Shown one piece after another: positions 27,671 through 62,485 of a stretch of 64,000 nt of DNA; positions within the stretch are counted from its first letter, which is position 1, and every line of letters starts with the position of its first letter. The position numbers were made by a program, and so were the translations under genes. The stretch covers positions 28,824,398 to 28,888,397 of the forward strand of contig NC_092577.1 in NCBI RefSeq assembly GCF_037975245.1. Reading direction: 5' to 3'. Source of the stretch: Apostichopus japonicus (taxonomy: Eukaryota; Echinodermata; Holothuroidea; Aspidochirotida; Stichopodidae). The notes under the pieces were generated by a model. It was not told where the DNA came from. It made no database searches and saw nothing but the letters and a program-made list of their open reading frames with translations.

Positions 27671-27960
27671 TTAGAGACATGTGTTTGAGAAGCATTTGTT
27701 CTTCATCGGAATCGTTGGTCCGTTGGTTGGACATCCCAACCAATGCTTTGTAGTCCACAATGGATAGCCAGAGTCAACTCTATCATTAGCATCGTTATAA
27801 CGCCAGTACAGTTCATCCTTGAAGAGGTACGTGCGACCATTGCTCCATTGAAAGGCAGCATCTACAGTACCTTGATTGTAACCCGGCCAATATGTATTAG
27901 TATCTAAGTTACCTTGTTCTGTCCTGTCGAGGTCAACAAGGTAACGCCAATACTTTGTTC
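27671..27960 (-). CDS. Gene A exon 7 (propeller 2, blades 3-4, stop)
   Basis: 290 coding bp from acceptor TTCATACCAG to TAA at 27671. It ends WLGCPTN followed by a short tail with two Cys. Gene B exon 7 also has 290 coding bp, which supports the stop. Confidence 0.91.
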
Positions 27961-30900
27961 CTGGTATGAAATAGAGAAGATATAGAAGAAGAAAAAAAAG
28001 CAGAGAGTTACTGTAAGTGATAGTTTATCGGTATTCATCATATTGAAATTAGTGTGTAGTAAAGTATTGTGTTATCAAAACGCCTAATATATATCCACAA
28101 TGAAACAGCGCAAACTTGAGACCGAATCGTTGTGAATTGTTAGGTATCTTTTATAACAACGACGCATTACAAAGTCCAAGGATCGCGGCGTATCATCTGA
28201 GACATTTTCGAAATATAATTATAACATAAAAAATATCTGAACAGGTAGTTGTTCCCTAACTTCTCCCTGATCTGATTAACAATGGACATTTTTAACTAAC
28301 CCGGAAAAAAGCTGCAGTGCTCATGGCCTAGACGGTGGAATTTTTGTCGGCGTACACCGTCTATCGTTACAACATAATAGTATAGAAAGTCCATTTTCGA
28401 TAGAATCTTAAAAGCATGTCTTTGGGCAGAATTGTAGACTTGATATGTCAAAGTCCCAGAAGTTTTAGTGGTAGAAGTGCTCACGTTATTCAACATTTGT
28501 TAAATCTCTGTAAGGCTCCTTTAAGGCTTATATTGATGCTGACATCCACTCCAAACTTAGCATGAAGGTCTTAATGTTTATGTTACTCCATTGTTTAATA
28601 ACTTCTAATAACTAAATCAAAATATGTTCCTGTAAGTTATATGAACAACAAGGCACCCTTAGATGGCATTCGAAACTATATTATATGCTGACAAATTTGA
28701 AATGTATTTTCAACATGTCATTCGAGGAACTGACCATATAGTCTGTGATTTAGACCTGATGGTCCTGTGACATGAAACTCGTCTGTACGAAGGGACATTT
28801 GTCAAATAATTATTAGTGGCATAAATGTGCCAACTGAGTTGATAACAGTGTCTTTTAAAAGGTCCATAACATAAAAAATTAACTTTGTCCCTAAAGTGCT
28901 CTGCTCAATTATTTTAAGTATAGGGTCTGAGGAAAGCAAAAGGATTAGGGATGGTAAGATAACTGATCAATGATTGAAATACTGGAAATTGACGCTAAGA
29001 AAACAACTTTTCCTGAACTGTTTATGGTATCCTTTGAGCCATTACAGTGAAAAGGCTAAAGCCGTTGAGAATGTCCGTGGATGCAGAAATGGAGATAAAT
29101 ACGGTACTGTCTCGTTAAAAGCTGCTTCCGCCCGAAGGGTGCTTCGGCGAATAGGGTCTTGAAACTAACCGGAAAGATTAGACTACGATTTTATGAAATA
29201 TCTAACTTTGAGAGTTGGACGGAAGACGTGGCGTGACGAATCTTAACTGGTATTGGAAGTCTGCAGAGGTGTTAGGTAGACGGACGTAAAAGAACTGCTG
29301 TACCGGCTGGTGTTGGTGGTAATTGATCGTGACAGGAAATCTCTAGCTTTATTTGGACGGACGTCAAAGGAGCTGATGTGTTTGGGCGGATTGGTGCTTG
29401 TGTTCAATGACTAGAAGACGAGATTTTCACGATGACTTACCTTGCTTCTAATTGCATATATTCGGAAAGTCCAAGTAAAGGTTCTCCTATTGTACTTGCC
29501 ATAAATCGTTCTCAACTGTCTTATTTGTTAATGCTTTGGGAATTATTGTTACAAGCAACCACTGCCGATAACAATACCTATACGACTGGCTTCATCTAAA
29601 TCCAAGATAAACGCCTGCGGTAAACTTTAGAAATAGAGTGGAGGGGGGAACACGCATGATGCGACAAACCTTTGAAGAAATAGCCCTTGCCGTTCCTTCC
29701 CCATACAAGAGCGGCATCGATGTCGTTCGGTAGTCCAGACCAGCCCCTTGAAATCTGCATCGGGTACCCGCTGTCCAGAGAGGTCCCACTTGTACGCCAG
29801 TATTGGTCTCCCTACAAAAATAGAAATGAGAGTTGTAAAGCTTAATTGTAAAGGTATTAATATGATTTGTAAGTATGTATGTTGAATTTATACTAATTTA
29901 AGTCAAACGGGTTACTGGAATGAGATAGTCATTGTATTTTCTTCACATGCCATTCGTTGGATTTACAATTCAAAGGAAGTACATTCTTTTTTCGTTCAGT
30001 CATTACTATCTCGAGGTTCATACACTAGTAAACTGGCTAGGGCTTAGGTTATTTTAGATAATTTGCAACTATCGGGCAGTTCGGGATCGAGAGAGAGTTT
30101 TCGAGGGACCAGTTGGAATATAGTATCCCACTTGGTGTAAAATTCGGACACCATTTTGTAGTGGTATGTTTAAATTACTGCACTGAATGACACGGTTGCA
30201 TTTTCTTTACTTTAAATGAACCATTCTATGATATTCAAATTGAAGGGTTTTGAAATACTACTTTGGTATATCTTGTTTTTCACAATTTTGAGTTCATGAT
30301 GCCTTGATGTTAGTTAACGTCCATGTATAAAACCACGCAATCAGCCAACTGGAACAATTTTCACACACTAAAATGCTTTAGTTTCCTAGAATGGTTTGAG
30401 TTTTAAAAGGCACTTCACTGGAGGCACTGATACTCCAACTTATTCCCAGACAATAAGGAGTGTTCAGTTAGATGTCTCAGTGAGGTCAGATGCTATGAGG
30501 ATGGAAGTAATTGACTGTTGAAATCTGAGCCATTGTAATCATTATTTGAATTTTTAGCACAGTTAGTAGTGTCAATTGTTGGTAGAATTCCACAAAAGTG
30601 TTATTAATGTAGAACAAAGGACACACACACAAGTACACTAGTACGATATACAGTGACTAGTACGAGTACAGTGCAATATTCCTGTGTATTGTTTACGTTG
30701 AGGGCTTTCACGATATAAGTGAACCCGCCATGCACATATTAAATATCCCACCGAGATGACGGTGTGCCATTTCCATACACGTGCGAACATTTAATCCGAA
30801 AAATATGTCAGATATCTTTAATTGTGGTTTATATCAGACATCTGAAATTAAATTTGAGATAATAATTTGGAATTTGAGATATCTGAAAGTGAGCATTTCA

Positions 30901-39973: not shown

Positions 39974-40086
39974 GATGTGCAGCGCGTAGGTTATCTGTCG
40001 TCTCAAAATTGAAACTAAATAATCCTCATTTCGTCTTTAATTATATAGGTGTCTGCATCAACCTGATTACAATCGAAGCAAAACTA

Positions 40087-40302
40087 CAGAGAACCAAACG
40101 TTCCATAAATGTCACAAGTTACAAGTTTTCGACATGCTTATGTTGAATTTTACATCTTGATGGATGTAAAGACATATTGTTTTTTGTATATTATTTTCGA
40201 CATTTTTGGAATTATAAAATTTTGATGTCGAATTGGACATACATGTTAACTTTGACACCTCACTTTCTTTTTCGACATTTATGGAACGTTTGGCTCTCCG
40301 TA
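40087..40302. mobile_element. MITE (216 bp) just upstream of gene A
   Basis: The left arm AGAACCAAACGTTCCATAAA and the right arm in reverse AGAGCCAAACGTTCCATAAA form inverted repeats of about 25 bp. The perfect 8-bp direct repeat CAAAACTA lies on both sides (40079-40086, 40303-40310), as expected for an hAT-type insertion. The interior repeats a TTCGACAT(T) word. Its near edge is about 115 bp upstream of the gene A ATG, so it is in or next to the promoter/5' UTR. Confidence 0.87.
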
Positions 40303-40479
40303 CAAAACTATAGACTATAATATCGCATGATGTCAAGGTTGTACCAAGTAGATGTAGGAAGGTCACTTCTCCCTGGTCTAACCAGGGACCTGGCATTTAC
40401 GCAGTTGTGGTTTTTCTGCTACTCTGTGCATATATAATCGGTGAAAAAAAAAGTAGTTCGCTGCACGCATTTGTAGTTT

Positions 40480-41150
40480 ACAAAGTTACCGACTGGTTCG
40501 ATGAATATCGTAACCCAAGCGAATGAGCTTGTGCATAAGTATGCGGGCGAGCGTACGTTGTGTGTGACATATTGCTTGTATGAACGATATCTCACGAAGT
40601 AAACCTTGAACCAATCTCATATTTAGTGTGAAGGAGTACCACGATAATTAAAAGAAGCATATAGCTATTGGTTGACGTCAAAGTCATTTGGTGTCACTAG
40701 GGTCAAAATGTGAAAACCTTGTAAACACGATATGCATGAGTGTGCGTGTGCACTTATTTTGTATTCTGACCGAGGACTTGAACAAAAGAATTCCAGGTCC
40801 TCGGATGTGATTTCTAAAGAATCACCACGTCCTCGGAAGAATTCTATTGTATGGAGTAGGGTACGTGGATTTGAAATATGAAGAAAAAAAAAACAATGGG
40901 GTTCTCGGTCTGAATGTAAAACAAACATGTGTGCTTGTGTGTGCCATCTTGCATGTAAAACAATATCTCGAGAACGTTAGCTTGGATCAATCACACAAGT
41001 AGTTTGTCGTTGTGCCACGTTACATACAGGAAGCCTAATGTATTTGGTGGAGGTCAGATGTCATTTGTAGTCACCAGGGGTCAAATTGTGGAAACCTTGT
41101 TTAATAATCTACCGTACCTCCCACCGGCCAGCCTATTAGATTAAATGTAC
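40480..41150 (+). repeat. Two tandem copies of dispersed repeat
   Basis: Two related ~300-bp units, each with TGTGTG(A/C)CAT, CTTGCATGTAA or CTTGTATGAACGATATCTC, CTTGGATCAATC-type words, GTCATTTG(G/T)(T/A)GTCACTAGGGTCAAA and GTGAAAACCTTGT. Related to the repeats at 165-225, 4150-4340 and 5500-5690. Confidence 0.65.
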
Positions 41151-41269
41151 GTTACGTCTCATTAGAAAAGAAGAGGCTGTTGGCAATTGGAAATTAGCTT
41201 ATGGGCATCCGTAGTTATGAATCAAGAAGTTACTAAGAACATAATACAGGTAATCATTGAATCTATAGC

Positions 41270-41335
41270 AGTAAGTTGCCGTCAGGAGGACGATACACCA
41301 CTCCCACTATGATTTGGGCTTCAATGTAGGAATAC
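41270..41335 (-). pseudogene. LINE endonuclease scrap
   Basis: Minus-strand translation AQIIVGVVYRPPDGN matches the conserved start of LINE APE-type endonucleases (VGVVYRPP). Nothing else of the element is recognisable around it. Confidence 0.5.
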
Positions 41336-41339
41336 GCAA

Positions 41340-42363
41340 TTCTATAATTAGCAACTACATTCAATATCGATATTTTAATGAGAAAGTTCTTTACGAGAGG
41401 TTTACTGAACTCGTTACTGACCCAGGCTGCTTGTCTTACAATGACTTTCAATTAATGTATAATTACTTAAGGATATATCCTGAGACATTTTGTCATTGAG
41501 CCCTGTTTCAGTTAAGCCAACAACTGATAAATTAAGAGTTATGATATAAAAACGATAGGTAGTCAGTTATGTGATTAATATTCCTCACCAAACTACGACT
41601 GTTATGACGGACAACACTGAAAGTGCCCTTATCCAATCCATTGATCTCATCCATATTAAAGGATTATATCATTTGTCATACATGTTAGACAATAAAAGAA
41701 ACACAATGATGAAGAAACTGTTCAAATATCTTATTCCGTTATGGAGATATTCAAGTTTAAAGTTCTATCTGATTGTGTAGAAACTGCTGAAATCAGACTA
41801 GCTGTGATGTCACATCCTCACATTTCTGAAAAGTCTTTGTTATTTTATTAAAATGTTTTGTGAGATTTTATGACTTACAACCAATGGATCTCATATTTGT
41901 CAAGGGAAGTATCAGAGATTTAACATCTGAAGCATTTTTGATTATATTTTTTTAGATTTGTGAACAAAATGTTATTAATTTTTATTGAAATATATTCACA
42001 CATGTTAAGAAAGTGAGGATGTGACATCACACCCTCACAGTAAGTCTTTCTACACCAGTCATTTTCAAAGAAATTTTTATATCTTTAAAGCGTGATATCT
42101 CCTAAACAGAGCATGCTATCATGGTAGTTTCTTCACTGTTCTGTTTGCCTTTTTAAGCTCTTTCATACAAGATAGACATGTCAGATACCTGAACCAATCC
42201 TTTAAAACAATTGAATCATTGCAAATGCATGTTTTCAAATAACCAGAGATGCGATTATCGATTAAGTCGGACAGGGCTTTTTCAATATCAATTGAGCCAG
42301 CCAAACAAGATCGGAATTCTTCATCAATAAAGAACACAGCAAGAGTAGAGAGACTATATTACA
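41340..42363. other. Intergenic between the hemopexin genes
   Basis: AT-rich; no exon supported. A repeated word GAGGATGTGACATCAC occurs at about 42013-42028 and its complement-like form near 41805. Confidence 0.4.
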
Positions 42364-42445
42364 CAGGTCTATTGTGAACAGATACTATTACAGGTATGTT
42401 GTAATCAGATACTGTGTACAGGTCTAGTGTGATCATATACTACGA
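42364..42445 (+). repeat. 27/28-bp tandem triplicate
   Basis: Three units starting CAGGT(C/A)T at 42364, 42391 and 42419, each containing a (A/T)CAGATACT(A/G)T-like or ATCATATACT segment. Confidence 0.7.
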
Positions 42446-42470
42446 GTTATATAGTGTGGTAATTACATAC

Positions 42471-42723
42471 CTGTATGCATGGAAGTCTCATTGCAAGGGC
42501 CATTGTTGCACACATGTATGTGATAAGTGTTACTAGCAAAGACCATTTCTGGATTTTTAAAAATAAAACAGATCCTGTTTGATAACATATCAAAAACGAT
42601 GTACTTTTGTTGCTTCTCTGCAATTTTGCTGAGAGAACATATGTGCGGATTGATATCGAAGAGAAGTGTGCCACATGTATAGGCTTGAAGATACCATACC
42701 ACGATGACAGTATCAAATGTCAA
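42471..42723 (-). CDS. Possible orphan exon, unknown product
   Basis: An open minus-strand stretch of about 80 codons ends exactly at a good donor (CATACAG|GTATGT). It has even, protein-like composition with six Cys (TCGTLLFDINPHICSL, NRICFIFKN, HVCNNGPCNETS). No family recognised and no clear acceptor or partner exon was found, so it could be a chance ORF or the relic of a lost gene between the two hemopexin genes. Confidence 0.3.
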
Positions 42724-46400: not shown

Positions 46401-49400
46401 CATAAATTAATGTAAATCAACAAAGGCCATGTGATCAAAGGAGGTCAAGCGAAACATTTGACCAAAGTTTTAACAAACCAGCTTTCCGAACTATTCCAAA
46501 CTTCAAACTTGGTGGACCTTTTGCGGGGCATGGGATTTAGTACCACCTTAATCAATGACATCACAAGATCAAATATCAAATAAACCGCCAAAATAAAAAA
46601 TAAAACCATTACGCTTGTGCCAAGCGACAAGATGGACGAAACACTCATAATTAACCGTGTACATACCCTGAAAGTGTGCAATGTATTCATGAATGTAAAA
46701 CACAAAAGGTTATGTGATCAATGTAGGTCGAAGGTCATGTGGAATAGTAGTGACACTCAATGCCATTTAGAACATATTAGGTTATGAGATCAATCAAGTT
46801 CAAAGCTTCAGAAAGGTGTTTCGTTTATTCCAAACCGGAATGCTCATGCACTGCACAGACTTTATGGGTGCATGGCGTTGTGCAGGCTCCGAAGTGATGA
46901 GATCAATGTCTTCATACAACCAAATAATATGATGATGACTGCAACTGCATTGATTGCATACTTAAATTAACTTTGTTGTGTGTATCAAATTACTGACTGT
47001 TCACTGACTGACTGCTTACATTATATTTGTCAATGGTTCTTAAATGGCTCAAAATGGCGTAGAAAGATAATGTTTTAACGATTTTGTTGGTTGAAAATGA
47101 TAAAAGTCTCAATGTGTGTTTGCCAAATTTTAACTTCGACCTTCCCAGCTTACTGCCCAAAAAGTTGAGTTAAAATGACACCGTTGTATGCAATTTTCAT
47201 ATAAATAATCATCATTTTTATTGAGTTATCTGTCGTGAAACATTTTGAGCTGAATAAAATTAGCCAGATTTGTTAACGAGTCCCTAGATTGTACTAACGT
47301 CAATCAAAATTTGCAAGTCCCGCCCAACAGTCATGCGCCAATCAAATCTCTGTTTTGACCGTTTGGCCTAGACCTAATTTTTACTTTCGTGGCTAGCCTG
47401 TGTTTGGTATATTTTCTTTCAGTCTCACCTATGTAGCTTGCGAAATTGCGTTATTTCCTTCCATTGCAAGGAATAAATGGGTGTTTTCAGACGTTTCCTC
47501 CTTGAAATTGGGTAAAAAGAGTGGACGATATACGAGTATACATAGGTTACATTTTTGTAATGAACATGCTGGTGTTAAGATTTTAAATTTCTACATCTTG
47601 AATAAAAGTCTAACTTTTATTACGTTCGTGTGTTCTGGTTATTGCCAGGCATGTCATAATACCTGCATAAGTTTACCACTGAGCTATTGAACCATGATAC
47701 ATGTAAATGGTTAATCATGGGGGGAAGCCGACACACACGACTAACGTCGATACACACGATATACCAGTACATCGACACTTGCAAGATATCAGAATACAAG
47801 AAATAAAAGAAGGTAAACATCGAATACTTTTCATTTTGCTGGTAGCAATAACGGAACCCAACAATTTTTCTTATGAACATTTCTTATAATCTAAACTCGG
47901 ATACAGGATTCTAGAGATTTGTAAAAATGAGACATCACTTCAATATCAAATGGTAACAAAAGGAACGATAGGCTAATACTTTCAATTTAACTTTGTCGAA
48001 GATCAAATGTAAAAGTAAGGATAACATTGATTTCCTTTACAATGTCCTTCTAATCAAGCTAAAGCCGCAAGAATGCTGAGTGTTTATGGTTTTAAGCTTA
48101 TGTTTATACCATGCATGGCCTTTAAGACAACGTAAAAACCGGATGGTACTTTCACCAATTCAGACTGATTTACCTTTAAAGGGGAAGTTCAGTATAAAAC
48201 CAGAGATTTATAAGTGCTAGAACATGTTTATTCCAAACTAATAACCCATATCATTGTAGATTTTACCAATACGACTTTGAAATACATCAAGTGAAACCGT
48301 CGTCACCGCCAATTTGAAGAGCGGCCATTTTTTCTTATTGTATGAAGTATAATACCCGGTTGATACCAGTCTCTATACGTTTGCAGTTAACTAAAACAGT
48401 AACGTACTTATACAATCAGTTGGGACATACTGTAACGTTAAACCGTGCTGTAAGCATAAAGTTATATAGCATTTTGCAGCCATCCCCAGAATATATTCAA
48501 CCGGCAGACCGACAGCAAATATGCTGTAATGTCCCTTTGATTTCGCCATCGGCATTTTTCAAAATATCCACTTGAGCAAAATGTATATCAAAATTCCTTT
48601 GTACTGAAATCACAAGAGTGGTATTAGAACACTGATTGCAAAAGTATTTGAAGCAATTGCGGGGTCCGAAATCGTAAACGATTTGGACTACAGTACTACT
48701 ATTAGTTGTGCGAAAATAGTTCATGTTAACCTAAATTACACAGTTTTTCAATGGAGAGATGCCATTGGCTTTAATGCATGCGAGAGATTTTACACACAAA
48801 AATCTTATATGGGCTGTCGCGCGTTCTGATTGGTCAATCAGGTTTGACCTCAGCAAATGCAAAAGTATGATATTTCATGAAAGATTTCTAAGAAGTTGTA
48901 GCCTTTTCTGATTTTGTAGAATGTGGGAAAATAAATAGCTAGGCTCAGTTTCATAGTAAGAGCAGTTTCTTTTTGCTGAAGTATGACGATGTAACAGTAA
49001 ATGTGAAGCCTCGGAGTTGTCGAGTAAAGCTTCTTTGGGGGAATGAAAGTATAACAAATGTGTAGGAGCGAATGACATTACACTTTTAGGTGCTTAATAG
49101 TAATAATATCATAATCATAATCAGATGTTACGAAATTCTTCCCTCTTTGCGCTTTAAACCCCCTTTGGGCCCTCCAATTAAGTGGAAAATCGAAGATAAA
49201 GTAATATGTTTTTCTTGCAGATTTTTGCATGTCTGGACAATTCGATGCAATAACAAGAACGTCTGATGGAAATACCTACGCTTTCAAGGATGACCTAGTC
49301 GTGCAGTTAATCGACGCAGGCACGGATGTCGCTTCTGGTTATCCTAAAGCCATATGTGAGGTCTTTCCTGGGATACCATCAAACCTCGATGCTGCAATAT

Positions 49401-52400
49401 ATTGGACAAATGGTAAAACATACTTTTTTAAGGTAAGTTGTAGCAGTCACAGTAGTGCTTTCGAAAAAGATATTTAGAATGATCGGAACAGGAGCACACA
49501 TCTCGCGCTGAGCTTTGTAGTGTCATAATTAAAGATTTATGCTAGATTTCAGACAAATACGTACAAAATACTAAGTTACTCTCCATACTCTAGTTTCCTT
49601 CCGTAAGCCCTAAGAAAACATAACGCATGTGCCGGCCTTCGCAGACGAGGGATGAGTACACAAACGAAAACAGGGCAGTACCATTGTAACGCTCAAATAA
49701 ATTGAACAGAATTTAAGCCTCCAATGTGTTGAAAAACTATGTAATTGTGCATCGACATTCTTGTAAATGTCTTGGAACTCGACAGAGTAAACGGAAATAC
49801 CATTTGCAGCGAAACCGGTTTTTCAATGGGGAGAAATGGTAGACAAACTGAAACTCAATTGAGTAGAAGAATTTATTTTACTTTGAGAGTTTCGCCTTCT
49901 CTTTCTCCTTCTCCTATTTCTAGTGTAACATAACAAAACAAAGAATAGTGTTGTCTAATCTAGAGTATAGAGTTCTACCAGTGACATTACTACCTTCTTC
50001 ACTGTTTTAGAAATTGCTGGCTTTAATATAATATTGTCCTACCAAATAAAATTGGACGTCCGGATGACGGAAGCTTGATTTTATGTCCATTGGTTCTAAA
50101 GCAATACAAAATGAGGGACGTATTAACACTATGACTAACACTTGCTAGGATTCGCCCTCTCTTCATAGGGCCCGACTATAGCGTTCATTAGCATCATTAA
50201 ATATTTAAATCCCTATGAATTGCTTAACAAAAACTTTATAATAGCAACTCATTAAAAATCCTCATGAACCTCATTAACAGTTAATTGTTTCTATTGTTCA
50301 GGGAAGTCAATACTGGCGCACGACTGGGACCACACCAGATGACGGTTACCCTAAACAGATTTCCGATTATTTCCCTGGGCTACCAAATGATATTGATGCC
50401 GCCGTCGTTTGGGGAGGAAACAGCAAAGGCTTCTTCTTCAAAGGTATCAACATCTTTCACTTATTTGTGCGTTTTTTCATAATGTTCATGTCTACTTACT
50501 TGTCAGCCGGCTTCACTGATCGCCAAGATTCACGCTTGGCAGCATTCACATGAACCGTATATATTCAGTATTTCAGTGGCAGATATTAATAGATAAGTGG
50601 TAGAGAAGTTATATTAAGACATGACAGAACGTTATCGTATATAATCATTTCAATTAGGAAGACGAAGACCAAATTGATTAAGTGCTTAATGCAGTAGTAT
50701 GTAATACACAACCCAGTCACCCACTCCCCTTCCACAAAAAAAAAAAACATAGCGAAGAGAAAATAAATCGAACCACATGTGGTTCATAATATGTTATTCA
50801 AACTTCAGTGCTCAAGCCTTCAACTTAATTGTGTTTGTGAAAAACCGTGATATATCTTCCAAATAAAGCTATTTTTTCTCAGCTGTTTGTGGAAGTTATA
50901 CATCACAATAATTTATATCACATAGACCAATTATGGTAATTGGGTGTGTGTCGCCATTAATACTGCTTCTGGGTTATTATATCCGTGTAATATGAAAACC
51001 TTTAGGTCAGTCTTTAGTCCAGGGCACGAAATCAGTTATAACTGTGTTTTTTCAGCTCATCGGATACACACAGATCACCAGTTTGTTGTTATCAGCATTT
51101 CAACGGAATAAGTACATCATTTGATTTATTCAATGGCTTCATGATTTCCATTCTTACCATATAGGCTCCTTCATTTTTCGATCATTGGCTAAGATCATGT
51201 GTAGTAACTGTTTCGTTTCAGCATTGTAAATACCACAGTAGGCGAAAGTCATTGTTTCGACGGCGCCGTGTAACACTAAAATGATAAATCTTTTGGACCC
51301 AGTCTCTTTCTTGTGCAAAGTTTCTTAAACATTGATCTCCGACTCATATTTTACGTCACTACATTTCAGGCACAGAGTATTGGCGATTCAATCCTATCAC
51401 CGACAGCACAGAAAGAGGTAACATAGATACCAATACTTATTGGCGTGGGTATAATCAAGGTACTGTAGATGCTGCCTTTCAGTGGAGTAATGGTCGCACG
51501 TACCTCTTCAAGGGTGAACAGTACTGGCGATATAACGATGCTGCAAATAGAGTTGACTCTGGATTTCCATTGTCGACTTCAAAGGAATGGCTGGGATGTC
51601 CAACCAACGAACCAACGATGCCACTGGTAGACGTGTGTGTACCGGACTCATGCACGTGTTCATCGTTATCGGGTAAAATATCTCCAAACTTTTTTTGATG
51701 TGCCTGATTTGATCCTCTGTTGATATATCAAGCTCTACAAAAAATGGTAGCCCTCTAAAATGGTTGTTCTTTCTACTGTCAGCAATATGTCACAACTGGT
51801 GTATGCTGCACATAATATTTCCTTGATATGGTAGTCACGATAGCGAGATATTTGTCGATTTCTGTCAGGTATATTGACCGAATTTCAAAAGATTAACAAC
51901 ACATGCCACGTGCACTGTGTCAGCTCCCAGAAGCAAACTTACATCTATTGTGATACAAATGTAAGCTTTGTTGATTCATTTAAAATTTTTGAAGGTCTGG
52001 CGGGGGTGGGAAGTATTGCTTTATGGTACTATTTTGTTCTATAGCGTTGTATAGTAGGTAGTGATACAATATTGTCTAAGACAGTTATTACAATTTCTAG
52101 AAACAAAACGTCGATGAAGAATCACAATTTAATCTGACCAGTGCTGCCGACTTCTATATTTTTACTTTCTTTCAGGGTAAACGTCATACAGTTTTCCATG
52201 GTATAAACTGGGTATTATTGCCAAGAGCAAAGGGTAGAAACGGAATATGTATCAAACATTATGTTTTATCTAACACATAACCTTCCATTGTGGTACATTA
52301 CCACCAAGTTACAACTCAAGGTGTATTTTCCTGTCTTATCGGAGTGTTTAGCATGTTCTGCTTTTAAGTATCCTGTGAAAGATAACGAGAAATGACAGCT

Positions 52401-55400
52401 GTAACTATGGATTTTAAATGTTGAAATGTACTACCATATTACCAAATAAGTGTCAAGTATAGTAACACGGTTAGTTTAAGCTTATAGTGAGATGCAGGTT
52501 TTATTAAATTTATCAAAAGTCAAAACAACGGAATCAAGCTCTTCTCACCATTACCAGCTATATAGTTTCGTTCAGAAGTAATCATGTTGCAAATATATTA
52601 ATTCATTCTTCAGTACTCCAATTAAGCGTGACTACTTAAGTAGACGTAGTGAGCTGCATTACTATCGAATTTCTGCATCGATTCGTGTCGACAATTACCA
52701 AAATCAACTGAAACATTCCAGGCATTCAATGCTTTGAAATCAACATTGAGCACACCCATCATACATTTTGTTATGATGCCGGGGGGGGGGGGTGTTACGA
52801 TCAACTCGATCAAGGCCAGAATACACCTCCCCTTGGGTTCACAACTCAAATGACTAAACAGCACACTGTAAAATTTAACTTTAAATATAACAATAAGTAT
52901 TTATTTAATTGTGTGTTCAAGGTAATTAAAATCAAACAAAGATCATTTATCAATATCTAAGCAGTTTACACTAAAACAGATTTAATAAGTTATACTATAA
53001 TTTACTCACGACCTGGTGTGTGCCGCGACGCGAGCGCAGTGACAAAAAGTCCTGGCGAATATCCCAGCGAAACTTGTAGACGGACGAATGTCCAATATTG
53101 AAGAAATCCAGCTCCCAACTTGATGACTTCCACTTCCGAGGTCGACTACTAATGAATGTCCAAGTTGTGCTTGCAGCTTGTTTATCCTTGGATTCCTGTC
53201 CTTGGGTAACTCAGAGGCCACAATAAGTAGTGCTGACTGGCACAGAACCAAAGACGGCTACACAACGATGGGCGACTTCGAAGCCGGTAAACTTGTAGCA
53301 AATCCACTAATAAAAAGACAGCTATAACTTTACTGTCAAACTAAGTGAGTATTTACTCACACTGGAATTGTAGGATTCACTTGAGCGAGAGGTTATTAAA
53401 ATCCTGGAGCCAAGATGGTTAAAAACTTTTGATCTCAAATCATCAGGTGCTTATATAGCCTTTTCACAAGTCCAGAAAGATCTTGCAATGTCCATCCATT
53501 CTAGAAGCATCTTACAGTAGCTCCAGCTCAGTTCAACCAATCCAAAAGGTCACTTCACCTTTCCAGGAAATCCTCACCTAGTGTTCTAAAAATAGCACAG
53601 GGGATGTCCCCTTGGCAGCACTCCAATGTTCTAGCATGTTCCAGTGTGTACCTTGTTGAGATGTTCTACATTGTTCTCAAATGTTCTAACTCTTCTAGAA
53701 GCTTCTCAACTTTTCCAAATATTCTGCACACACCAGATATGCACACACACACACCAGGCAGTTCTATACTATGATTCTTAGATTAATATATAATATTCTA
53801 TGATATTGATTTATAATACAACTAATTGTTGCAAAAATCATACAAATTATTGAGATTACTTAGGGGCCTGTAACACCCTCCCCCTTAAAGAAAGAAAGTT
53901 TGATTGAAAAGAAAACTTTCTTAACTTTTAATCTCATATGAACATTTAAGCCTATTTAAGGCACTCATAACCTTAAAGGTTTACATACAGAATTTATTTA
54001 CAATGACACCTTTTCTTTTAAAACTCTTTGCTTGTTAATGATAAACTATCCAACTCTGGACAAGGCATCAGCCATCACATTATCTTTGCCTTTGATATGC
54101 CTGATGTCCAGGTTGTATTCCTGCAAGGTCAAACTCCACCTTACTAGTCTCTGATTTTTGTTTTTCATCCTGTGGATGAAGGTCAGGGGGTTATGATCTG
54201 TGAAGACAAGCACTGGGTGCACAGTGGTACCCAAATATACATCAAAATGCTCCAATGCCAAAATGAGAGCAAGGCACTCCTTTTCAATTGTGGAGTAATT
54301 TCTTTGGTGCTTGTCAAACTTTTTGGAGAAGTATGAAATAGGGTGATCTATTCCATCTTCACCAACTTGCATTAGAACTCCACCACACCCTATGTCACTG
54401 GCATCTATGGCCAACTTGAATTGTTTCTGAAAGTCTGGTGCTATCAGAACTGGTTCACTAATCAGTATGGCTTTGATTTTGTTGAAACCATTTTCGGTTT
54501 CCTCTGACCAAACATATTTGACATTCTTTGCCAACAAATTTGTCAGTGGACTGGCCACATCAGAAAAATTCTGACAGAACTTCCTGTAATATCCAGCCAT
54601 ACCTAGAAATCGCTGAAGCTCTTTCCTAGTCTTTGGTGTGGGGAATTTCTCAATTGCTTCAACCTTAGCCTTGATAGGCTTGACCTTGCCTTGGCCTACT
54701 ACATGACCCAAATAAACAACATTGGCTTGACAAAATTCACTTTTAACCAAATTAACTGTTAGTTTGGCTTGTGACAATTTCTTAAACAAGTGACGGAGTT
54801 GCCCTATGTGTTGTTCCCAAGTTTGGCTGTAGACAATCAAATCATCTACATAGGCTTCACAGCCTTCAATATCAGCCACAATACAATTGACCATTCTCTG
54901 AAACGTTGCCGGTGCATTTTTCATACCAAACGGCATAACCCGATACTGATAAAGGGCATCTGGGGTGCAAAAGGCCGAAATTTCTTTGGCGCGATCAGTG
55001 AGGGGGACTTGCCAATACCCCTTCAAAAGGTCAAACTTGCTAACAAATTTTGCATTGCCAATTTTATCAATGCAATAGTCTATACGCGGAATCGGATACG
55101 AATCCGTTTTCGAGCACTGATTGACTTTTCTAAAGTCTGTCACAAATCTAAAGGAACCATCTGGTTTTGGAACCAGAATACATGGGGAACTCCATTCACT
55201 TTTGCTAGGTTCTATTATGTTATTTTTTAACATATACTCAATTTCTTTATTGAGATGTGCTCTCTTCAGTGGGTTTACTCTGTAGGGGTGTTGTTTGATT
55301 GGTTCATGGTCACCCACATCAACGTCATGATCAGCAGCATTAGTCCTACTAGGAACATCGGGGAAAATATCTTCTCTCTCGTGAATTAATTGCTTTAATT

Positions 55401-58400
55401 CACACTGCACATTTTCTGAAAGATGGCCTAATTTTTCATTCAACTTTGCAAGCACGTCAGAGTTTTGCAACTTCATAGGATATTCATGCTGCCTATCATC
55501 ACTATTGTCATTTTGATCAACTTCCATTTCTGGAGTGTCGTCATGACTACTATCATTACTAGGGCCTACAGAGCACACTGGTTTTACACTGCCATCATCA
55601 TTTCTATCAACATACTCTTTGAGCATGTTTATATGGCACAATTGCCTACTTTTGCGCCTATCTGGCGTCTTGACAATGTAGTCAACTTCACCCACTTTTG
55701 ACTCTACTGTATAAGGCCCATGGTATCTGGCCCGGAGTGGGTGTCCAGGTATTGGAAACAAGACCAGTACTTTGTCTCCTGTGCTAAATACTCTACTTTT
55801 GGCATTCTTATCATACCACCTTTTCATTTTGCTTTGGGCCTCTTTTAGATTATCCCTAGCAATTTCATTTGCTCTATTAAGCCTATACTTGAATTTGGAA
55901 ACATAATCCAAAAGGTTTGTATCAATTTCATCATTCAGCCATTTTTCTTTCAGAAGCTTTAAGGGACCTCGAACTGTACGCCCAAATACTAACTCAAAGG
56001 GACTGAAGCCTAATGTTTCCTGAACTGCTTCTCTTGCAGAAAACAATAGTAGGTGAACACCGTCATCCCAATCCTTTTCAAAATCGAAACAGTAAGTCCT
56101 AATCATATTCTTTAGAGTCTGATGGAATCTCTCTAAAGCTCCTTGGGACTCCGGATGGTATGCACTAGAGGTGTATTGTTCTATTCCTAACTCATACATG
56201 ACTTCCTGAAATAAGCCTGACGTGAAATTTGACCCTTGATCTGACTGTATCGACTTTGGAAGTCCTACAAGAGTGAAAAACTTGGTTAGAGCCTTCACAA
56301 TTGTCTTAGCCTTAATATTTCTCAAGGGTATAGCTTCTGGGAACCTGGTAGAGGCACACATGATAGTCAACAGATACTGATTACCTGACTTAGTCTTAGG
56401 GAGAGGTCCTACACAATCAACTATAACCCGACTAAATGGTTCATCAAACGCCGGTATAGGCTTTAAAGGAGCCGCAGGGACTTTCTGATTAGGCTTGCCC
56501 ACTACTTGACAAGTGTGACAAGATCTACAATACTCAGAAACATCCTTCCTAAGTGTAGGCCACCAGAAATGATTCAAGATCCTATCATGTGTCTTCCTAA
56601 TTCCTAGATGTCCTGCCATGGGACTATCATGGGCAATGCTGATGACCTCCCTGTGATATACTTTGGGAACTACAATCTGATGAATGACTTGCCATTCATC
56701 AGTTGCTGGAGCATCAGGTGGTCTCCATTTCCTCATCAGAACACCATTCCGTTTGTAAAAACAGACAGGAACTTCTTCACCTTCCTGTAGGGTCAATGCC
56801 CTTTGACCAAGGTCCTTAAGTTCAGGGTCATTTTCCTGTTCTATGACTAACTTATTGTGACTCAAGGGATCAGTATCACTGTCCCCATTAAGCATGGGCT
56901 TGAAGTCTTGGCTATGTTTTGGAGAACTTTTCTCCCCTGAAGAGAGAAGACGACCTGGTTCATCCAACTCTGTCATGAATGTTCCCTCTAAATCTAGATT
57001 AGGGACCAAGTCATCCCCTTTATCCTTACTATTTGCTTCAAGCATTGCTTTCTGAGTCATACTTCTTGTTACTGCACAAGCTGGAAAGACGACACTACTT
57101 TCGTCATCATTACCAGCCTCCGTGCAGGGTTCACGGGTAACAATTGGTTGAGGAAGTACTTTTCCACCAGCCAAATCATTACCTAACAACAGAGAAACAC
57201 CTTTGACTGGGAGTTCAGGCCTCACTCCAACTATGACTGTACCTGAGACCAAATCAGACTCTAAATTCATCTTGTGAAGAGGGACACTAATAATATCCAT
57301 ACCAATGCCCTGAATCAAGACATTTTCACCTGTTGCACTTACTTCACTAAAGGGCAATGACCCTTCCAAAATCATTGACTGTGCACAACAAGTGTCACGC
57401 ATGATCTTTATAGGCTTTGGATCAACTTTCTCACTCTCAAGTGATACAGAACCCTCCAAAACAAATGGTTCAAAGTCTTCCCTAATTTTCTCAGACTCAA
57501 CATCTTTCTGTTTAACAGCCTGAAAACTAACTTGAGATCTCATGGCCACAGCACAACCTGTGGGTGCAGATTGCTGTTGTAGAGCCAACTGCTTTCCCAT
57601 TAACTTCCAACACTTGGACTTAGTGTGGCCTGGTTCTTTGCAGTAGTCACAAGTCACTGACTTCTTAAAACCATCCCATGACTTGGTTGGTTTTTCACTA
57701 GAAGGACCTTTACTTCCCTGATTTGAGGGACCTGACTGTTTATTTCCTTCTTTAGTGCTATTTTGATTTTGGGATGATTTATTTTGGTTAGGCTTATTAT
57801 AATTATTCTTGTGATACTGACTAAACTTATTATGCCCACCTGTATTATTAGTACTCAACTTATGCGTGAGGGCGTAATCATCTGCCATTGTTGCTGCATC
57901 TTCTAAATTATTTATGTCACGCTCATCTAAGTGAGTCCTGATGTCAGCATGGATACAACTCTTGAATTGCTCAACCAAAACCAATTGCCTAAGTTGTTTG
58001 TATTCATTGTTCACATTTTTAGAGCTAAGCCACCTATCTAACATTTGTTCTTGTACTCTTGCAAACTCAACATGAGTTTGGTTGGTTTCTTTCTTTGCAC
58101 TTCGGAACTTTTGCCGGTAAGCTTCGGGCACCAACTCATAGGCCTTAAGAACTGCTTTCTTAACCACATCATAATTATGACATTGTTCAATTGATAGGGA
58201 AGAATAAATTTCTCTAGCTTTCCCGATGAACACTGACTGGAGCAACAATGTCCAAGATTCTTTAGGCCATTTCAAACTTGCGGCAATCTTCTCAAAGTGT
58301 AAGAAATATTTATCGACTTCAGTTTCTTGAAATTTTGGCACTAACCTAATATTCTTTGTGGCATCAAATTTGTCTGAGAAGCTTGATGAGCCTTGTTTCT

Positions 58401-61400
58401 CTAATTTATCTTTTTCCATTTGTACTTTGGCTTCTATTTCTTTCAATTTAATTCGTTCCTCCATTTGTAATCTATCCTGTCTTTCTTTTTCTTCCATCTG
58501 AAGCCTTGCATCTAACTCTTGCTGTTTGAGTATCTTTTCCAAATCTAGTTTTTCCTTTCTTTCTTGTTCCTCAATTTTTAATTTGGTCATTTCAACTTCT
58601 TTCTGAATCTCTCATTGTTTTAATTTTACTGCAGAATCTGAAGTATCCAGAATTTCTACTTTGTTTTCCAGACATTCCTCATCTAACAAATCGTCTGCAA
58701 CCAAACGGTCAATGAGTGTATTTTTGATGACTTGTTTACGCATAGCATGCTTTACTTCAATTTCCAAATACACGGCCAATGCCATTAAATCTGGCTTCTT
58801 GAGCTCATCAAAAACCTCCCAAGATACATCTTGAACAAAATCTTCTGCAACAAATGCCATAGTGAACAACTAGTTAAATTACAAACAACAATATGCAGCA
58901 CAAATATCAATGTAAACACACAATCAGATAATGTTGAAAAACAATTAACTTCAATTTTTCACAGTGTACGTTCCCGGATAGGCCCCCAATTCTGTTACGA
59001 TCAACTCGATCAAGGCCAGAATACACCTCCCCTTGGGTTCACAACTCAAATGACTAAACAGCACACTGTAAAATTTAACTTTAAATATAACAATAAGTAT
59101 TTATTTAATTGTGTGTTCAAGGTAATTAAAATCAAACAAAGATCATTTATCAATATCTAAGCAGTTTACACTAAAACAGATTTAATAAGTTATACTATAA
59201 TTTACTCACGACCTGGTGTGTGCCGCGACGCGAGCGCAGTGACAAAAAGTCCTGGCGAATATCCCAGCGAAACTTGTAGACGGACGAATGTCCAATATTG
59301 AAGAAATCCAGCTCCCAACTTGATGACTTCCACTTCCGAGGTCGACTACTAATGAATGTCCAAGTTGTGCTTGCAGCTTGTTTATCCTTGGATTCCTGTC
59401 CTTGGGTAACTCAGAGGCCACAATAAGTAGTGCTGACTGGCACAGAACCAAAGACGGCTACACAACGATGGGCGACTTCGAAGCCGGTAAACTTGTAGCA
59501 AATCCACTAATAAAAAGACAGCTATAACTTTTCTGTCAAACTAAGTGAGTATTTACTCACACTGGAATTGTAGGATTCACTTGAGCGAGAGGTTATTAAA
59601 ATCCTGGAGCCAAGATGGTTAAAAACTTTTGATCTCAAATCATCAGGTGCTTATATAGCCTTTTCACAAGTCCAGAAAGATCTTGCAATGTCCATCCATT
59701 CTAGAAGCATCTTACAGTAGCTCCAGCTCAGTTCAACCATTCCAAAAGGTCACTTCACCTTCCCAGGAAATCCTCACCTAGTGTTCTAAAAATAGCACAG
59801 GGGATGTCCCCTTGGCAGCACTCCAATGTTCTAGCATGTTCCAGTGTGTACCTTGTTGAGATGTTCTACATTGTTCTCAAATGTTCTAACTCTTCTAGAA
59901 GCTTCTCAACTTTTCCAAATATTCTGCACACACCAGATATGCACACACACACACCAGGCAGTTCTATACTATGATTCTTAGATTAATATATAATATTCTA
60001 TGATATTGATTTATAATACAACTAATTGTTGCAAAAATCATACAAATTATTGAGATTACTTAGGGGCCTGTAACAGGGGGTGTTTCTCGTTAGTTTACTT
60101 TTGATAAGAAATGACGTAGTAAAAGCACATTGTACTCTTCGGCTTTTTGAAACCCCTCCCTTAAACCAATAATATCAAGCTATCACACAATTATTATTTT
60201 GCAGAACTAGATGGTTGCATTTCTGGGCAATTCGATGCTATAACACGAACCTCTGATGGAAAGACGTACGCTTTCAAGGATAATTTAGTGATGAAGTTGA
60301 ACGAACCAGGCACAGCTATTGTTTGTGGATATCCCAAGGAGATTACTGAGGTATTTCCCTTGCTACCATCATACCTCGACGCTGCAGTCAATTGGAATAA
60401 TGGGAAAACTTACTTCTTCAAGGTAACATACAGTATAGCCACGGTATGCAGTGGATATTTTCACATTCTTTCATACTTATTTGAGTGTTGTACTTTATTA
60501 CTTTTTGTGTGTGCAAGTATTCGGTATTCGCACTCGAGGAAAGGTACTCGGATGCGAAAGTGCTCGCACTTGAACCAGGTACAAGAGCACGGTTATTGGA
60601 GTCAATATGTAGAGGTAAAATCGGAGGTAATTTGCATCCCAAATACGGAAGCCTTTCATAATTACCGAATTGTAAGTGAAATGTGCATGTGAAATGTTAA
60701 TTTATTCAATATGTCAGCAGGTCACCTAGACTTTAAAATGTCAGTAACTCACATGAGCATAGATAATTCGATGTCCAGCAAGTGACTGAGGGTGACACGT
60801 TTATCAACGGCTGACATTGCACGCCAACCCACGATTATCTTAAATAGTAAAAACTGATCCGTAGGGATTACGTACGTGTGCTTGCCGAACATTCCAATTC
60901 ATATTTTCCTACTTGTAATTTCTGCCTTCGGGTTAGCATGACCAACAGTAGGGATCGTGCACAACGGGATATGACATAAGGCATAGATATCGGGCAATGA
61001 TGACATGTCAACAGTTCGATGGGACAACCCGTCATGGACTGGAAAATAGACAAGATTATATTTGTTAAACCATTCTTATATATTTTCAACATACATATTT
61101 CCTCAATGTAAATGTCATGTATATCTGTCTACACATTCGTGACAAAAAACGCTGCACGTGCATGGGCACGCGTCTAAAGGCTCAATTTCACTTAGAAGTG
61201 CCACGCATTGTCCATTGCCCACGATTTAATTGGCGCTGCTTAATAATTTAACAATAATGATGTTTGTCACGCCTCGATATGTTTTATTAACCTTTTTTAT
61301 GTGGTATGGTATGTAATATGGAGTCATTTTGAAGTCGATACTCTACAAACATCAATTGAACATTTCGCTCTCAATTCTCGAGTAGTTTCCCTCCTTCGAG

Positions 61401-62485
61401 GAGATAAGTTTCAGTTCCAGCAATTCAGCAGTCTTTAGGGAGTCGTTTTGGTAACTTTCTATGAAATCAATTTTCAATCAACATTTTCTTCTCGTTATGC
61501 CAGGGAAGTCAATACTGGGCCACGACTGGAACCACACTCGATAGCGGGTACCCTAAACAGATTTCTGCTCATTGGCCGGGATTACCAAATGATATTGATG
61601 CTGCCGTTGTTTGGGGAGGGAATGGCAAAGGATTCTTCTTCAAAGGTTGACTTCTCTTGTATTCTTGATCAATTTCTATATCAAGGTTAAATTACTTGTA
61701 TGATATGTACACTAGTTACGCAAACATTCAAAAAGGATGAGTTTTTAAAGATAAATCAACAACAAAATTATCACAGCCTTGGTAAAGCTTTTGAAGAGCA
61801 TATATAGGCTCTGATGAAATAATAGATCACCATTGGGATCCACTTCCTCGAGTAGTTGAAGGTTTAGACAGTCAAAACGAGGTATATTCCATGATAATTA
61901 TCTCCTGGTAGGAATTACAAAATATCGAGATGGGAGTTTTCAGCTGACAGTTTGGTACCTATTTCTCTTCAATATATATTAGTCTCACATTGCCTGCCAC
62001 CGAATCTGATAACCTTAAAGAAACCAATTGACCTTTCTGGGGATGATTTAATATATTATTTAATAACAATTAAGACTCCCGATTCGTAAACTGTATAGTG
62101 CAGGATGATTGCATACTCACACAGACGACGTAAACTGTGTTTAACACTAATTGAGTTAAATACGTAAGATCTCCATATATTTCATTGCGTTGCAGGAACA
62201 CAGTATTGGCGATACAATCCTATCAGCGACAGTACAGAAAGAGGTAACATAGATACCAATACTTATTGGCCGGGGTACAATCAAGGTACTGTAGATGCTG
62301 CCTTTCAGTGGAGTAATGGTCGCACGTACCTCTTCAAGGGTGAACAGTACTGGCGATATAACGATGCTGCAAATAGAATTGACACTGGATTTCCATTGTC
62401 GACTTCAAAGGAATGGTTGGGATGTCCAACCAGCAGAACAACGATTCCGTCAGAAGAGATGTGTCCATCAGGTTTAGGTAAATAA
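43349..62485 (+). CDS. Secreted two-propeller hemopexin-like protein, gene B
   Basis: Seven coding exons (43349-43424, 49221-49432, 50302-50443, 51370-51672, 60205-60422, 61504-61645, 62196-62485) give 460 aa in frame throughout. Layout equals gene A: signal peptide (MIRREIYEVF then hydrophobic LAGVLLSMIS), propeller 1 starting FCMSGQFDAI, Cys linker (VCVPDSCTCSS), propeller 2 starting DGCISGQFDAI, each closed by KEWLGCP. Exon lengths against gene A: 76/79, 212/212, 142/142, 303/306, 218/209, 142/142, 290/290, with identical phases. The mature chain has a single histidine (SAHWPG), so hemopexin-type heme ligation is not supported. Propeller 2 blade 1 is the most diverged part (KLNEPGTAIVCGYPKEITEV, with an extra Cys replacing the one in PKAICEV). 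Intron 4 carries a young LTR retrotransposon in antisense. Head-to-head with gene A, start codons 3.4 kb apart. Confidence 0.9.
44155..45512. mobile_element. Non-autonomous hAT-like DNA transposon, 1.36 kb
   Basis: It starts CAGGGGCGTATCCAGG and ends CCTGGATACGCCCCTG (perfect 16-bp TIR), followed inward by G-rich/C-rich runs. The direct repeat ATCAG flanks it (44150-44154, 45513-45517). It contains the family core CTATCTAAGCGTAGCGCCAC at about 44356. No transposase ORF. This is the best-preserved copy of the family scattered in 6.0-8.2 kb; an inner G-rich block near 45055-45130 may be a second element nested inside. Confidence 0.85.
46107..46120 (+). promoter_or_regulatory. RFX X-box-like site
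   Basis: GTTACCATAGCAAC matches the X-box consensus bound by RFX factors (GTNRCC, short spacer, GYAAC type). A second related word GTTACCATGGAAAT follows two bases later. It lies in intron 1 of gene B. A match of this length can occur by chance. Confidence 0.4.
48175..48890. repeat. Possible DNA-transposon copy beginning TTAAAGGGGAAGTTCA
   Basis: The left edge TTAAAGGGGAAGTTCAGTA, with AGAACATGTTTATTCCAAAC and ATCATTGTAGATTTTACCA, has the look of a high-copy animal repeat. No matching right end was found, so boundaries are approximate. Confidence 0.35.
49221..49432 (+). CDS. Gene B exon 2
   Basis: 212 bp; acceptor TTTTTCTTGCAG, donor AAG|GTAAGT. It encodes the propeller 1 opening CMSGQFDAI to NLDAAIYWTNGKTYFFK. 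Closest to gene A exon 2. Confidence 0.93.
50302..50443 (+). CDS. Gene B exon 3
   Basis: 142 bp; acceptor TATTGTTCAG, donor AAAG|GTATCA. It encodes GSQYWRTTG to NDIDAAVVWGGNSKGFFFK. Confidence 0.93.
51370..51672 (+). CDS. Gene B exon 4
   Basis: 303 bp; acceptor ACTACATTTCAG, donor ATCGG|GTAAAA. It encodes GTEYWRFN to WLGCPTN plus the linker VCVPDSCTCSS. A central run of about 110 bp is identical to exon 7 of this gene. Confidence 0.92.
52793..53875 (-). repeat. 3' LTR
   Basis: 1083 bp, starts TGTTACGATCAAC and ends CCTGTAACA on the plus strand. Differs from the other LTR at about 53331 (A/T), 53560 (A/T) and 53573 (T/C). The 81-residue ORF inside occurs in both LTRs and shows no known domain. 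Confidence 0.96.
53876..53886 (-). promoter_or_regulatory. Polypurine tract of LTR element
   Basis: AAGGGGGAGGG on the minus strand abuts the 3' LTR, the expected place and composition for the plus-strand primer. Confidence 0.85.
54046..58590 (-). CDS. Gag-pol polyprotein of Gmr1-like element
   Basis: 1514 codons. Residues 1-65 form a charged coiled coil; about 75-245 a retrotransposon gag capsid region; 314-327 a CX2CX4HX4C zinc knuckle (CDYCKEPGHTKSKC); about 395-475 an aspartic-protease-like region with RDTCCAQSMI, where the usual DTG/DSG triad reads DTC; 654-694 the integrase HHCC zinc domain; the integrase core with D725, D784 and E820 (D,D-35-E); a GPY-type module with HGPYTVESKVGEVDYIVKT; then RT with MPFGMKNAPATFQRM and YVDD; then RNase H with LAIDASDIGCGGVL and FTDHNPLTF, ending at ADALSRVG. 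The frame is intact. It is preceded in the same frame by a short N-terminal piece (58612-58869) cut off by one TGA. Confidence 0.96.
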   Translation of the reverse strand: MTKLKIEEQERKEKLDLEKILKQQELDARLQMEEKERQDRLQMEERIKLKEIEAKVQMEKDKLEKQGSSSFSDKFDATKNIRLVPKFQETEVDKYFLHFEKIAASLKWPKESWTLLLQSVFIGKAREIYSSLSIEQCHNYDVVKKAVLKAYELVPEAYRQKFRSAKKETNQTHVEFARVQEQMLDRWLSSKNVNNEYKQLRQLVLVEQFKSCIHADIRTHLDERDINNLEDAATMADDYALTHKLSTNNTGGHNKFSQYHKNNYNKPNQNKSSQNQNSTKEGNKQSGPSNQGSKGPSSEKPTKSWDGFKKSVTCDYCKEPGHTKSKCWKLMGKQLALQQQSAPTGCAVAMRSQVSFQAVKQKDVESEKIREDFEPFVLEGSVSLESEKVDPKPIKIMRDTCCAQSMILEGSLPFSEVSATGENVLIQGIGMDIISVPLHKMNLESDLVSGTVIVGVRPELPVKGVSLLLGNDLAGGKVLPQPIVTREPCTEAGNDDESSVVFPACAVTRSMTQKAMLEANSKDKGDDLVPNLDLEGTFMTELDEPGRLLSSGEKSSPKHSQDFKPMLNGDSDTDPLSHNKLVIEQENDPELKDLGQRALTLQEGEEVPVCFYKRNGVLMRKWRPPDAPATDEWQVIHQIVVPKVYHREVISIAHDSPMAGHLGIRKTHDRILNHFWWPTLRKDVSEYCRSCHTCQVVGKPNQKVPAAPLKPIPAFDEPFSRVIVDCVGPLPKTKSGNQYLLTIMCASTRFPEAIPLRNIKAKTIVKALTKFFTLVGLPKSIQSDQGSNFTSGLFQEVMYELGIEQYTSSAYHPESQGALERFHQTLKNMIRTYCFDFEKDWDDGVHLLLFSAREAVQETLGFSPFELVFGRTVRGPLKLLKEKWLNDEIDTNLLDYVSKFKYRLNRANEIARDNLKEAQSKMKRWYDKNAKSRVFSTGDKVLVLFPIPGHPLRARYHGPYTVESKVGEVDYIVKTPDRRKSRQLCHINMLKEYVDRNDDGSVKPVCSVGPSNDSSHDDTPEMEVDQNDNSDDRQHEYPMKLQNSDVLAKLNEKLGHLSENVQCELKQLIHEREDIFPDVPSRTNAADHDVDVGDHEPIKQHPYRVNPLKRAHLNKEIEYMLKNNIIEPSKSEWSSPCILVPKPDGSFRFVTDFRKVNQCSKTDSYPIPRIDYCIDKIGNAKFVSKFDLLKGYWQVPLTDRAKEISAFCTPDALYQYRVMPFGMKNAPATFQRMVNCIVADIEGCEAYVDDLIVYSQTWEQHIGQLRHLFKKLSQAKLTVNLVKSEFCQANVVYLGHVVGQGKVKPIKAKVEAIEKFPTPKTRKELQRFLGMAGYYRKFCQNFSDVASPLTNLLAKNVKYVWSEETENGFNKIKAILISEPVLIAPDFQKQFKLAIDASDIGCGGVLMQVGEDGIDHPISYFSKKFDKHQRNYSTIEKECLALILALEHFDVYLGTTVHPVLVFTDHNPLTFIHRMKNKNQRLVRWSLTLQEYNLDIRHIKGKDNVMADALSRVG
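58612..58869 (-). CDS. N-terminal gag segment, separated by in-frame TGA
   Basis: 85 codons starting MFTMAFVAEDF, with a SAP-like helical stretch (ELKKPDLMALAVYLEIEV, KNTLIDRLVADDLL). It is in the same frame as the polyprotein (start codons 279 bp apart) and ends in TGA just before the coiled coil. Either this copy has one nonsense mutation or the stop is read through. Many gypsy gag proteins open with such an N-terminal domain. Confidence 0.85.
   Translation of the reverse strand: MFTMAFVAEDFVQDVSWEVFDELKKPDLMALAVYLEIEVKHAMRKQVIKNTLIDRLVADDLLDEECLENKVEILDTSDSAVKLKQ
58972..58988 (-). promoter_or_regulatory. Primer-binding site, tRNA-Pro-like
   Basis: Four bases inside the 5' LTR edge the minus strand reads TGGGGGCCTATCCGGGA. 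It matches the complement of a typical animal tRNA-Pro 3' end except for a three-base difference in the middle. The geometry (CCA, C discriminator, 7-bp acceptor, T-stem) fits. Confidence 0.65.
58993..60075 (-). repeat. 5' LTR
   Basis: 1083-bp partner of the 52793 LTR. On the minus strand it holds the element's promoter. It ends 129 bp before gene B exon 5. Confidence 0.96.
60205..60422 (+). CDS. Gene B exon 5
   Basis: 218 bp; acceptor TTATTTTGCAG, donor AAG|GTAACA. It encodes LDGCISGQFDAI to YLDAAVNWNNGKTYFFK. Nine bases longer than its gene A counterpart. It starts only 129 bp after the LTR element ends. Confidence 0.91.
61504..61645 (+). CDS. Gene B exon 6
   Basis: 142 bp; acceptor GTTATGCCAG, donor AAAG|GTTGAC. 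It encodes GSQYWATTG to NDIDAAVVWGGNGKGFFFK. The usual Arg of YWR is Ala here. Confidence 0.92.
62196..62485 (+). CDS. Gene B exon 7 and stop
   Basis: Acceptor ATTGCGTTGCAG; encodes GTQYWRYN to WLGCPTS and a short Cys-bearing tail ending SGLGK, stop TAA at 62483-62485. The stop overlaps an AATAAA (62481-62486). A GTAAAT at 62477 could in principle be a donor, but the 290-bp coding length equal to gene A favours termination here. Confidence 0.88.

Follow-up and report, generated by a model that had tools for sequence, protein, structure and literature searches.

We analysed a 64,000-nucleotide stretch of the genome of the sea cucumber Apostichopus japonicus (hereafter the window), which lies on contig NC_092577.1 (C17) and corresponds to C17:28824398-28888397; coordinates prefixed with C17 refer to the contig, and all others to the window. 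The window holds two divergently oriented genes for secreted proteins built of hemopexin propellers, which are called the minus gene and the plus gene after their strands. These two genes probably belong to a family of secreted, propeller-only proteins of echinoderms, clustered on C17 with one to three propellers per chain, whose products would act as multivalent binding scaffolds and not as heme carriers of the bis-histidine type. The exons of the two genes and the gap between them are given below, where A, B and C denote the three exons of a propeller and scores are those of the family hidden Markov models (HMMs).

27671-27960, minus strand: minus gene exon 7 (C of propeller 2, stop codon TAA), from the splice model; AATAAA 257 nt downstream
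29670-29811, minus strand: minus gene exon 6 (B of propeller 2), AG/GT borders, 116 bits
31828-32036, minus strand: minus gene exon 5 (A of propeller 2), AG/GT borders, 156 bits
33419-33724, minus strand: minus gene exon 4 (C of propeller 1, with linker), AG/GT borders, 198 bits
34020-34161, minus strand: minus gene exon 3 (B of propeller 1), AG/GT borders, 112 bits
34637-34848, minus strand: minus gene exon 2 (A of propeller 1), AG/GT borders, 160.5 bits
39895-39973, minus strand: minus gene exon 1 (start codon and signal peptide), with ATG, hydrophobic stretch and phase-1 donor GTAAGT
39974-43348, no strand: gap between the two start codons
43349-43424, plus strand: plus gene exon 1 (start codon and signal peptide), from the splice model and signal-exon scan
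49221-49432, plus strand: plus gene exon 2 (A of propeller 1), from the splice model and family HMM
50302-50443, plus strand: plus gene exon 3 (B of propeller 1), same evidence
51370-51672, plus strand: plus gene exon 4 (C of propeller 1, with linker), same evidence
60205-60422, plus strand: plus gene exon 5 (A of propeller 2), same evidence
61504-61645, plus strand: plus gene exon 6 (B of propeller 2), same evidence
62196-62477, plus strand: plus gene exon 7 (C of propeller 2), with a phase-1 donor at its end; 62196-62485 in the original prediction
C17:28889714-28889922, plus strand: probable plus gene exon 8 (A of propeller 3), past the window edge, phase-compatible
C17:28891549-28891690, plus strand: probable plus gene exon 9 (B of propeller 3), past the window edge
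C17:28892459-28892748, plus strand: probable plus gene exon 10 (C of propeller 3), past the window edge

The original prediction described two seven-exon genes encoding 459 and 460 residues. With its exon set both models were spliced cleanly to products of exactly these lengths (minus and plus gene, respectively), and the six introns of each gene are all of the GT..AG type, with phases 1, 0, 1, 1, 0 and 1 in both. The start codons, described as divergent and 3.4 kb apart, are separated by 3,376 bp from ATG to ATG. Both proteins have a signal-peptide-like N terminus. The Pfam search found eight PF00045 stretches in each model (E values of 3.1e-98 for the minus gene and 2.8e-101 for the plus gene, which chance would not produce), with scores of 322 and 331.7 bits in the two models against a Pfam cut-off of 21.3; at E 0.001 it returned nothing besides PF00045 for either protein, and the catalytic domain of peptidase M10 was absent. 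The proposal of stand-alone, secreted, protease-free propeller proteins with an inverted paralogue was therefore borne out. The further proposal that each protein consists of two four-bladed hemopexin domains without a protease holds for the minus gene and for the lack of a protease; the plus gene most likely encodes three propellers.

The end of the plus gene had been placed at a TAA at 62483-62485. This TAA starts at the sixth base past a phase-1 donor (TTTAG/GTAAAT, after position 62477), which would make it intronic; GTAAAT is also the donor of exon 4 of the minus gene, and the exon 7 donor is kept in a second copy of the gene pair (see below). An exon triplet with an intact propeller follows 2.8 kb downstream of the assumed end, and the ten exons can be joined in phase to a 671-residue frame with three propellers, in which 11 of the 12 expected PF00045 stretches pass the cut-off individually. 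The A and B exons of the third propeller cluster with those of propeller 2 of the minus gene (FastTree support of 0.998 and 0.986), and its tail and stop codon show the same KNKC-type ending as the terminal propeller of that gene. The ratio of nonsynonymous to synonymous substitution rates (dN/dS) between these two propellers is 0.29. AATAAA is found 238 nt past the stop codon of the third propeller in both copies; past exon 7 it is found at 692 nt in one copy and nowhere within 1.5 kb in the other.

Under strict criteria, signal exons were detected at nine of nine gene starts, two of which had served to design the scan; one of these regions also gave a second, unrelated candidate. At the internal sites, namely the third triplet in both copies and an extra B-C exon pair in the second copy, no signal exon was found (0 of 3), nor did any of five stretches of intron 4, taken from the two genes in each copy with the retrotransposon-filled stretch left out, contain one. 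The idea that each propeller in the window is a gene of its own was rejected because each linker exon closes with a phase-1 donor and because the strict scan gave no internal signal exons. We consider it most likely that the product of the plus gene has 671 residues and three propellers, and that the model in the original prediction was cut by the window edge.

The profile search covered the whole genome (671.6 Mb, 35 contigs) and found PF00045 at no fewer than 81 places, a lower bound in that 150 of 167 candidates were scored. At least 42 of them are on C17, all between 28.85 and 29.14 Mb, and none of the 48 peptidase M10 places in the genome is on C17 or on contig C4. On C17 the family HMMs detected the two window genes with the third triplet, five single-propeller triplets (28.93-29.08 Mb, all on the minus strand) and, at 29.10-29.14 Mb, the gene pair once more. 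The head-to-head arrangement originally described is a real pair of inverted paralogues, and it belongs to a larger cluster. The second copy, located through exon matches and signal exons (spliced models were not built in full), lies about 250 kb from the window pair and includes the third triplet; its three largest pieces, of 18.1, 7.3 and 3.9 kb, show identities of 98.7%, 97.0% and 96.5%, respectively. Between C17:29088398 and 29098397, no PF00045 match is among those listed, which again is a lower bound. After its third propeller the second copy carries extra B and C exons without an A exon (C17:29137109-29138461; L032-L033), which represent either a partial duplication or alternative last exons. 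Elsewhere in the genome, contig C15 carries a 95.5% copy of propeller 1 and exon A of propeller 2 within the 10 kb examined, and one further listed PF00045 match 9 kb beyond. A distant paralogue set, which comprises exons of types A and B and several of type C and was detected as short stretches only, is located at 17.54-17.556 Mb of C4 (L035-L040). With such a paralogue on C4, where no M10 match lies, the propeller family looks older than the C17 cluster.

In the genes of the cluster the propeller module is a set of three exons with phase 1 at both ends, placed behind a single signal-peptide exon. The C exons within one gene are nearly identical (93% and 90% DNA identity in the two window genes). 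Between propellers 1 and 2, the synonymous divergence (dS) of the C exons is 0.085 in the minus gene and 0.145 in the plus gene over 91 codons, or 0.14 and 0.169 at full length; the corresponding values are 0.80 (A exons) and 1.39 (B exons) in the minus gene, and 0.86 (A) and 0.55 (B) in the plus gene. Judged from these sequences, the number of propellers appears to shift by recombination in the near-identical C exons.

Four of the five single-propeller genes are open through four exons and encode 229, 240, 229 and 229 residues. All five carry a minus-type signal exon (91.7-96.2% DNA identity over 338 bp), and in all five the 3' flank is like that of minus gene exon 7 (87.6-91.2%, three of them over only 194 bp); the start of intron 4 was found as the 3' flank in none of the five. 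The B-C intron of the four intact genes is about 94% like intron 3 of the minus gene, which belongs to propeller 1. As the divergence of propellers 1 and 2 long predates the separation of the single genes from propeller 1, these genes are best regarded as former two-propeller genes in which recombination in exon C removed one propeller. The opposite possibility, that single-propeller genes are the ancestral state, was rejected on the basis of the same intron similarity and the dS between propellers 1 and 2.

The gap between the start codons is retained as a whole in the second copy (99.05%). Upstream of the single genes, in five of five cases, no more of the gap is present than the initial 412-450 bp on the side of the minus gene. 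Because of this, a minus-type gene seems to have been copied without the plus side. The original prediction considered shared regulation from the 3.4-kb gap; such regulation is not needed by the family, as five of five single genes carry only the start of the gap.

The sequence relations described above were observed directly, and the order of duplication and loss that we infer from them is the following. An ancestral two-propeller gene would have been duplicated head to head, and the plus copy would then have acquired its middle propeller. Copies of the minus gene would have lost propeller 2, most simply via recombination inside the near-identical C exons. The gene pair would have been copied again about 250 kb away.

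With regard to function, the proteins are most likely extracellular scaffolds for multivalent binding, with one to three binding surfaces. The Cys residues ahead of blade I (C3) and past blade IV (C195) are invariant in five propellers. When structures in the PDB were ranked by profile, MMP-14 scored highest (132.6 bits), followed by MMP-2 (131.4), vitronectin (121.2), MMP-1 (121) and hemopexin (1qhu, 91). The window proteins thus share with MMP-14 (MT1-MMP) and the other MMPs the four-repeat unit and the flanking Cys pair; they differ in having no catalytic domain and two or three propellers per chain. Vitronectin, at 121 bits, is likewise a secreted hemopexin propeller without a protease, but the window proteins have more than one propeller, lack the somatomedin-B domain (PF00045 was the only domain found) and contain no RGD motif. 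The binding role is proposed by analogy of fold with the hemopexin domains of vitronectin or MMPs.

The most direct challenge to the ten-exon model of the plus gene is that the gene ends after exon 7 as first described, the third triplet being a leftover or a separate gene. The in-frame TAA starts at the sixth base past the donor and the 460-residue model is complete by itself. Several other observations also weigh against three propellers: ATTAAA occurs past exon 7 at 384 nt in the first copy and 746 nt in the second; under relaxed criteria, ATG frames with a hydrophobic stretch and a weak donor precede the third triplet in each copy, and similar frames, their donors weak or missing, occur in intron 4 of the two minus copies and the second plus copy; and the C exon of the third propeller groups with the plus-gene propellers, not with propeller 2 of the minus gene (support 0.887). 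The last point would be explained by gene conversion, and separate starts for the propellers are unlikely. An isoform that terminates after exon 7 is possible. A two-propeller plus gene, however, has to accommodate the phase-1 GTAAAT donor shared by both copies, the constraint on the third triplet, the closeness of exons A and B of that triplet to those of the last minus-gene propeller, the lack of a strict signal exon before it in either copy and the AATAAA at the same distance past the third stop codon in both; we regard it as improbable. As for the cluster, the second copy may be a haplotype that was kept twice in the assembly.

It had also been proposed that the two proteins mirror vertebrate hemopexin in size and architecture. 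This is correct for length and domain number of the minus gene only, which encodes a signal peptide and two propellers in about 460 residues, and a true orthologue, a coelomic carrier holding heme between its two propellers, would agree with this nearly equal length and with the match to 1qhu. According to an excerpt of PMC10135655, the heme ligands of vertebrate hemopexin are His213 in the linker and His266 in the C-terminal propeller. For rabbit hemopexin the same paper puts the bis-His Soret shift near 413 nm. A linker His was searched for in both window proteins and none was found, so that the ligand pattern is absent, the second ligand being judged from His positions only. In the mature minus protein the only His residues are His217 and His436, both in blade IV; the 460-residue plus model has His340 only, and the 671-residue model has His residues at 340, 553, 599 and 601 (propellers 2 and 3). 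No N-glycosylation sequon is present in either protein, the 671-residue plus model included, whereas human hemopexin has five. Moreover, MMP-14, MMP-2, vitronectin and MMP-1 all outscore hemopexin, and the cluster members carry one to three propellers. With the linker His missing and MMP-14 and vitronectin scoring higher, these are not hemopexins of the vertebrate type, a role as bis-His heme carrier is unlikely, and orthology is very improbable indeed.

A third explanation is a humoral recognition cluster under diversifying selection, in which gene conversion alters the surface of the single-gene products, as in immune families. Differences between the single genes fall mainly on amino-acid sites: in the six pairwise comparisons of the open genes dN/dS ranges from 0.60 to 1.58, with three pairs above 1 (s2-s4 1.19, s2-s5 1.21, s4-s5 1.58), and plus-type motifs are found within the minus-type C exon of s2. 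On the other hand, the multi-propeller units are constrained (0.21-0.29 in four comparisons), one of the five single genes is broken, and the same ratios would be produced by conversion from unlike donors or by relaxed constraint, with few synonymous changes to count (4.5 for s4-s5). Values between the two copies of the pair range from 0.12 to 0.82 where defined and come from very few changes. The single-gene pattern may thus be relaxed, diversifying or mixed by conversion, and a recognition cluster under diversifying selection seems rather unlikely. The single genes may also be decaying, which speaks against the main reading: dN/dS of the four open genes against propeller 1 of the minus gene is 0.57-0.86, three of these four stop 11 codons before the tail of the 240-residue one, and in the fifth gene exon B contains a stop and a deletion covers the start of exon C. 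We see a comparably small chance for a combined version, namely an echinoderm-specific extracellular family in which propeller number is switched via homogenised C exons and the single genes diversify as body-fluid recognition proteins. Protease-free propeller proteins acting as multivalent scaffolds still appear to be the probable account of the cluster.

Several other elements were noted. Intron 4 of the plus gene contains a long terminal repeat (LTR) retrotransposon at 52793-60075, with an open reading frame on the minus strand (54046-58611) that encodes, in this order, a SCAN-type gag, integrase, reverse transcriptase and RNase H; the domains are of the Ty3/Gypsy type. The position of integrase ahead of reverse transcriptase is presumably that of Gmr1-like elements. 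The SCAN domain is described as derived from Gmr1-like gag in the part of PMC3424704 available. The LTRs show 3 differences in 1,083 bases, and an apparent 5-bp target repeat lies within a G run. The element is missing from the matching intron 4 site of the second copy, which is compatible with duplication as well as with the haplotype view. Adjoining long plus-strand frames at 10341-11567 and 12814-13893 belong to the galactose-3-O-sulfotransferase family (PF06990; E values of 3.6e-55 and 3.3e-48). A purine-rich tandem array of the GAA/GAG type at 18182-19598 has long open frames on both strands and strong GC skew; these frames are probably not genes. Outside C17, contig C35 carries a full-length COX1 in which AAA occurs nine times, each time opposite Asn of a vertebrate COX1, and AGA five times, with Ser opposite four of them; TGA is read as Trp. 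We take this codon reading (AAA Asn, AGA Ser, TGA Trp) to be NCBI table 9, the code of echinoderms and flatworms, and the host to be an echinoderm by this code. Fragmented COX1 matches are also present on contig C29 (14745-31219).

Apart from MMPs, the most familiar proteins with hemopexin propellers are vertebrate hemopexin and vitronectin. In excerpts of two echinoderm papers, hemopexin repeats are mentioned only alongside MMPs (PMC8467561, PMC10381214), and a cluster such as the present one was not described among the matches listed in the open-licence literature, a scope outside which most subscription journals fall. That an echinoderm has a cluster of protease-free secreted genes whose propellers number one to three suggests that such an architecture arose more than once or predates vertebrates, and that it does not by itself imply heme carriage. 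The symmetric phase-1 triplet, together with the homogenised C exon, would provide a concrete and testable route by which the number of propellers changes.

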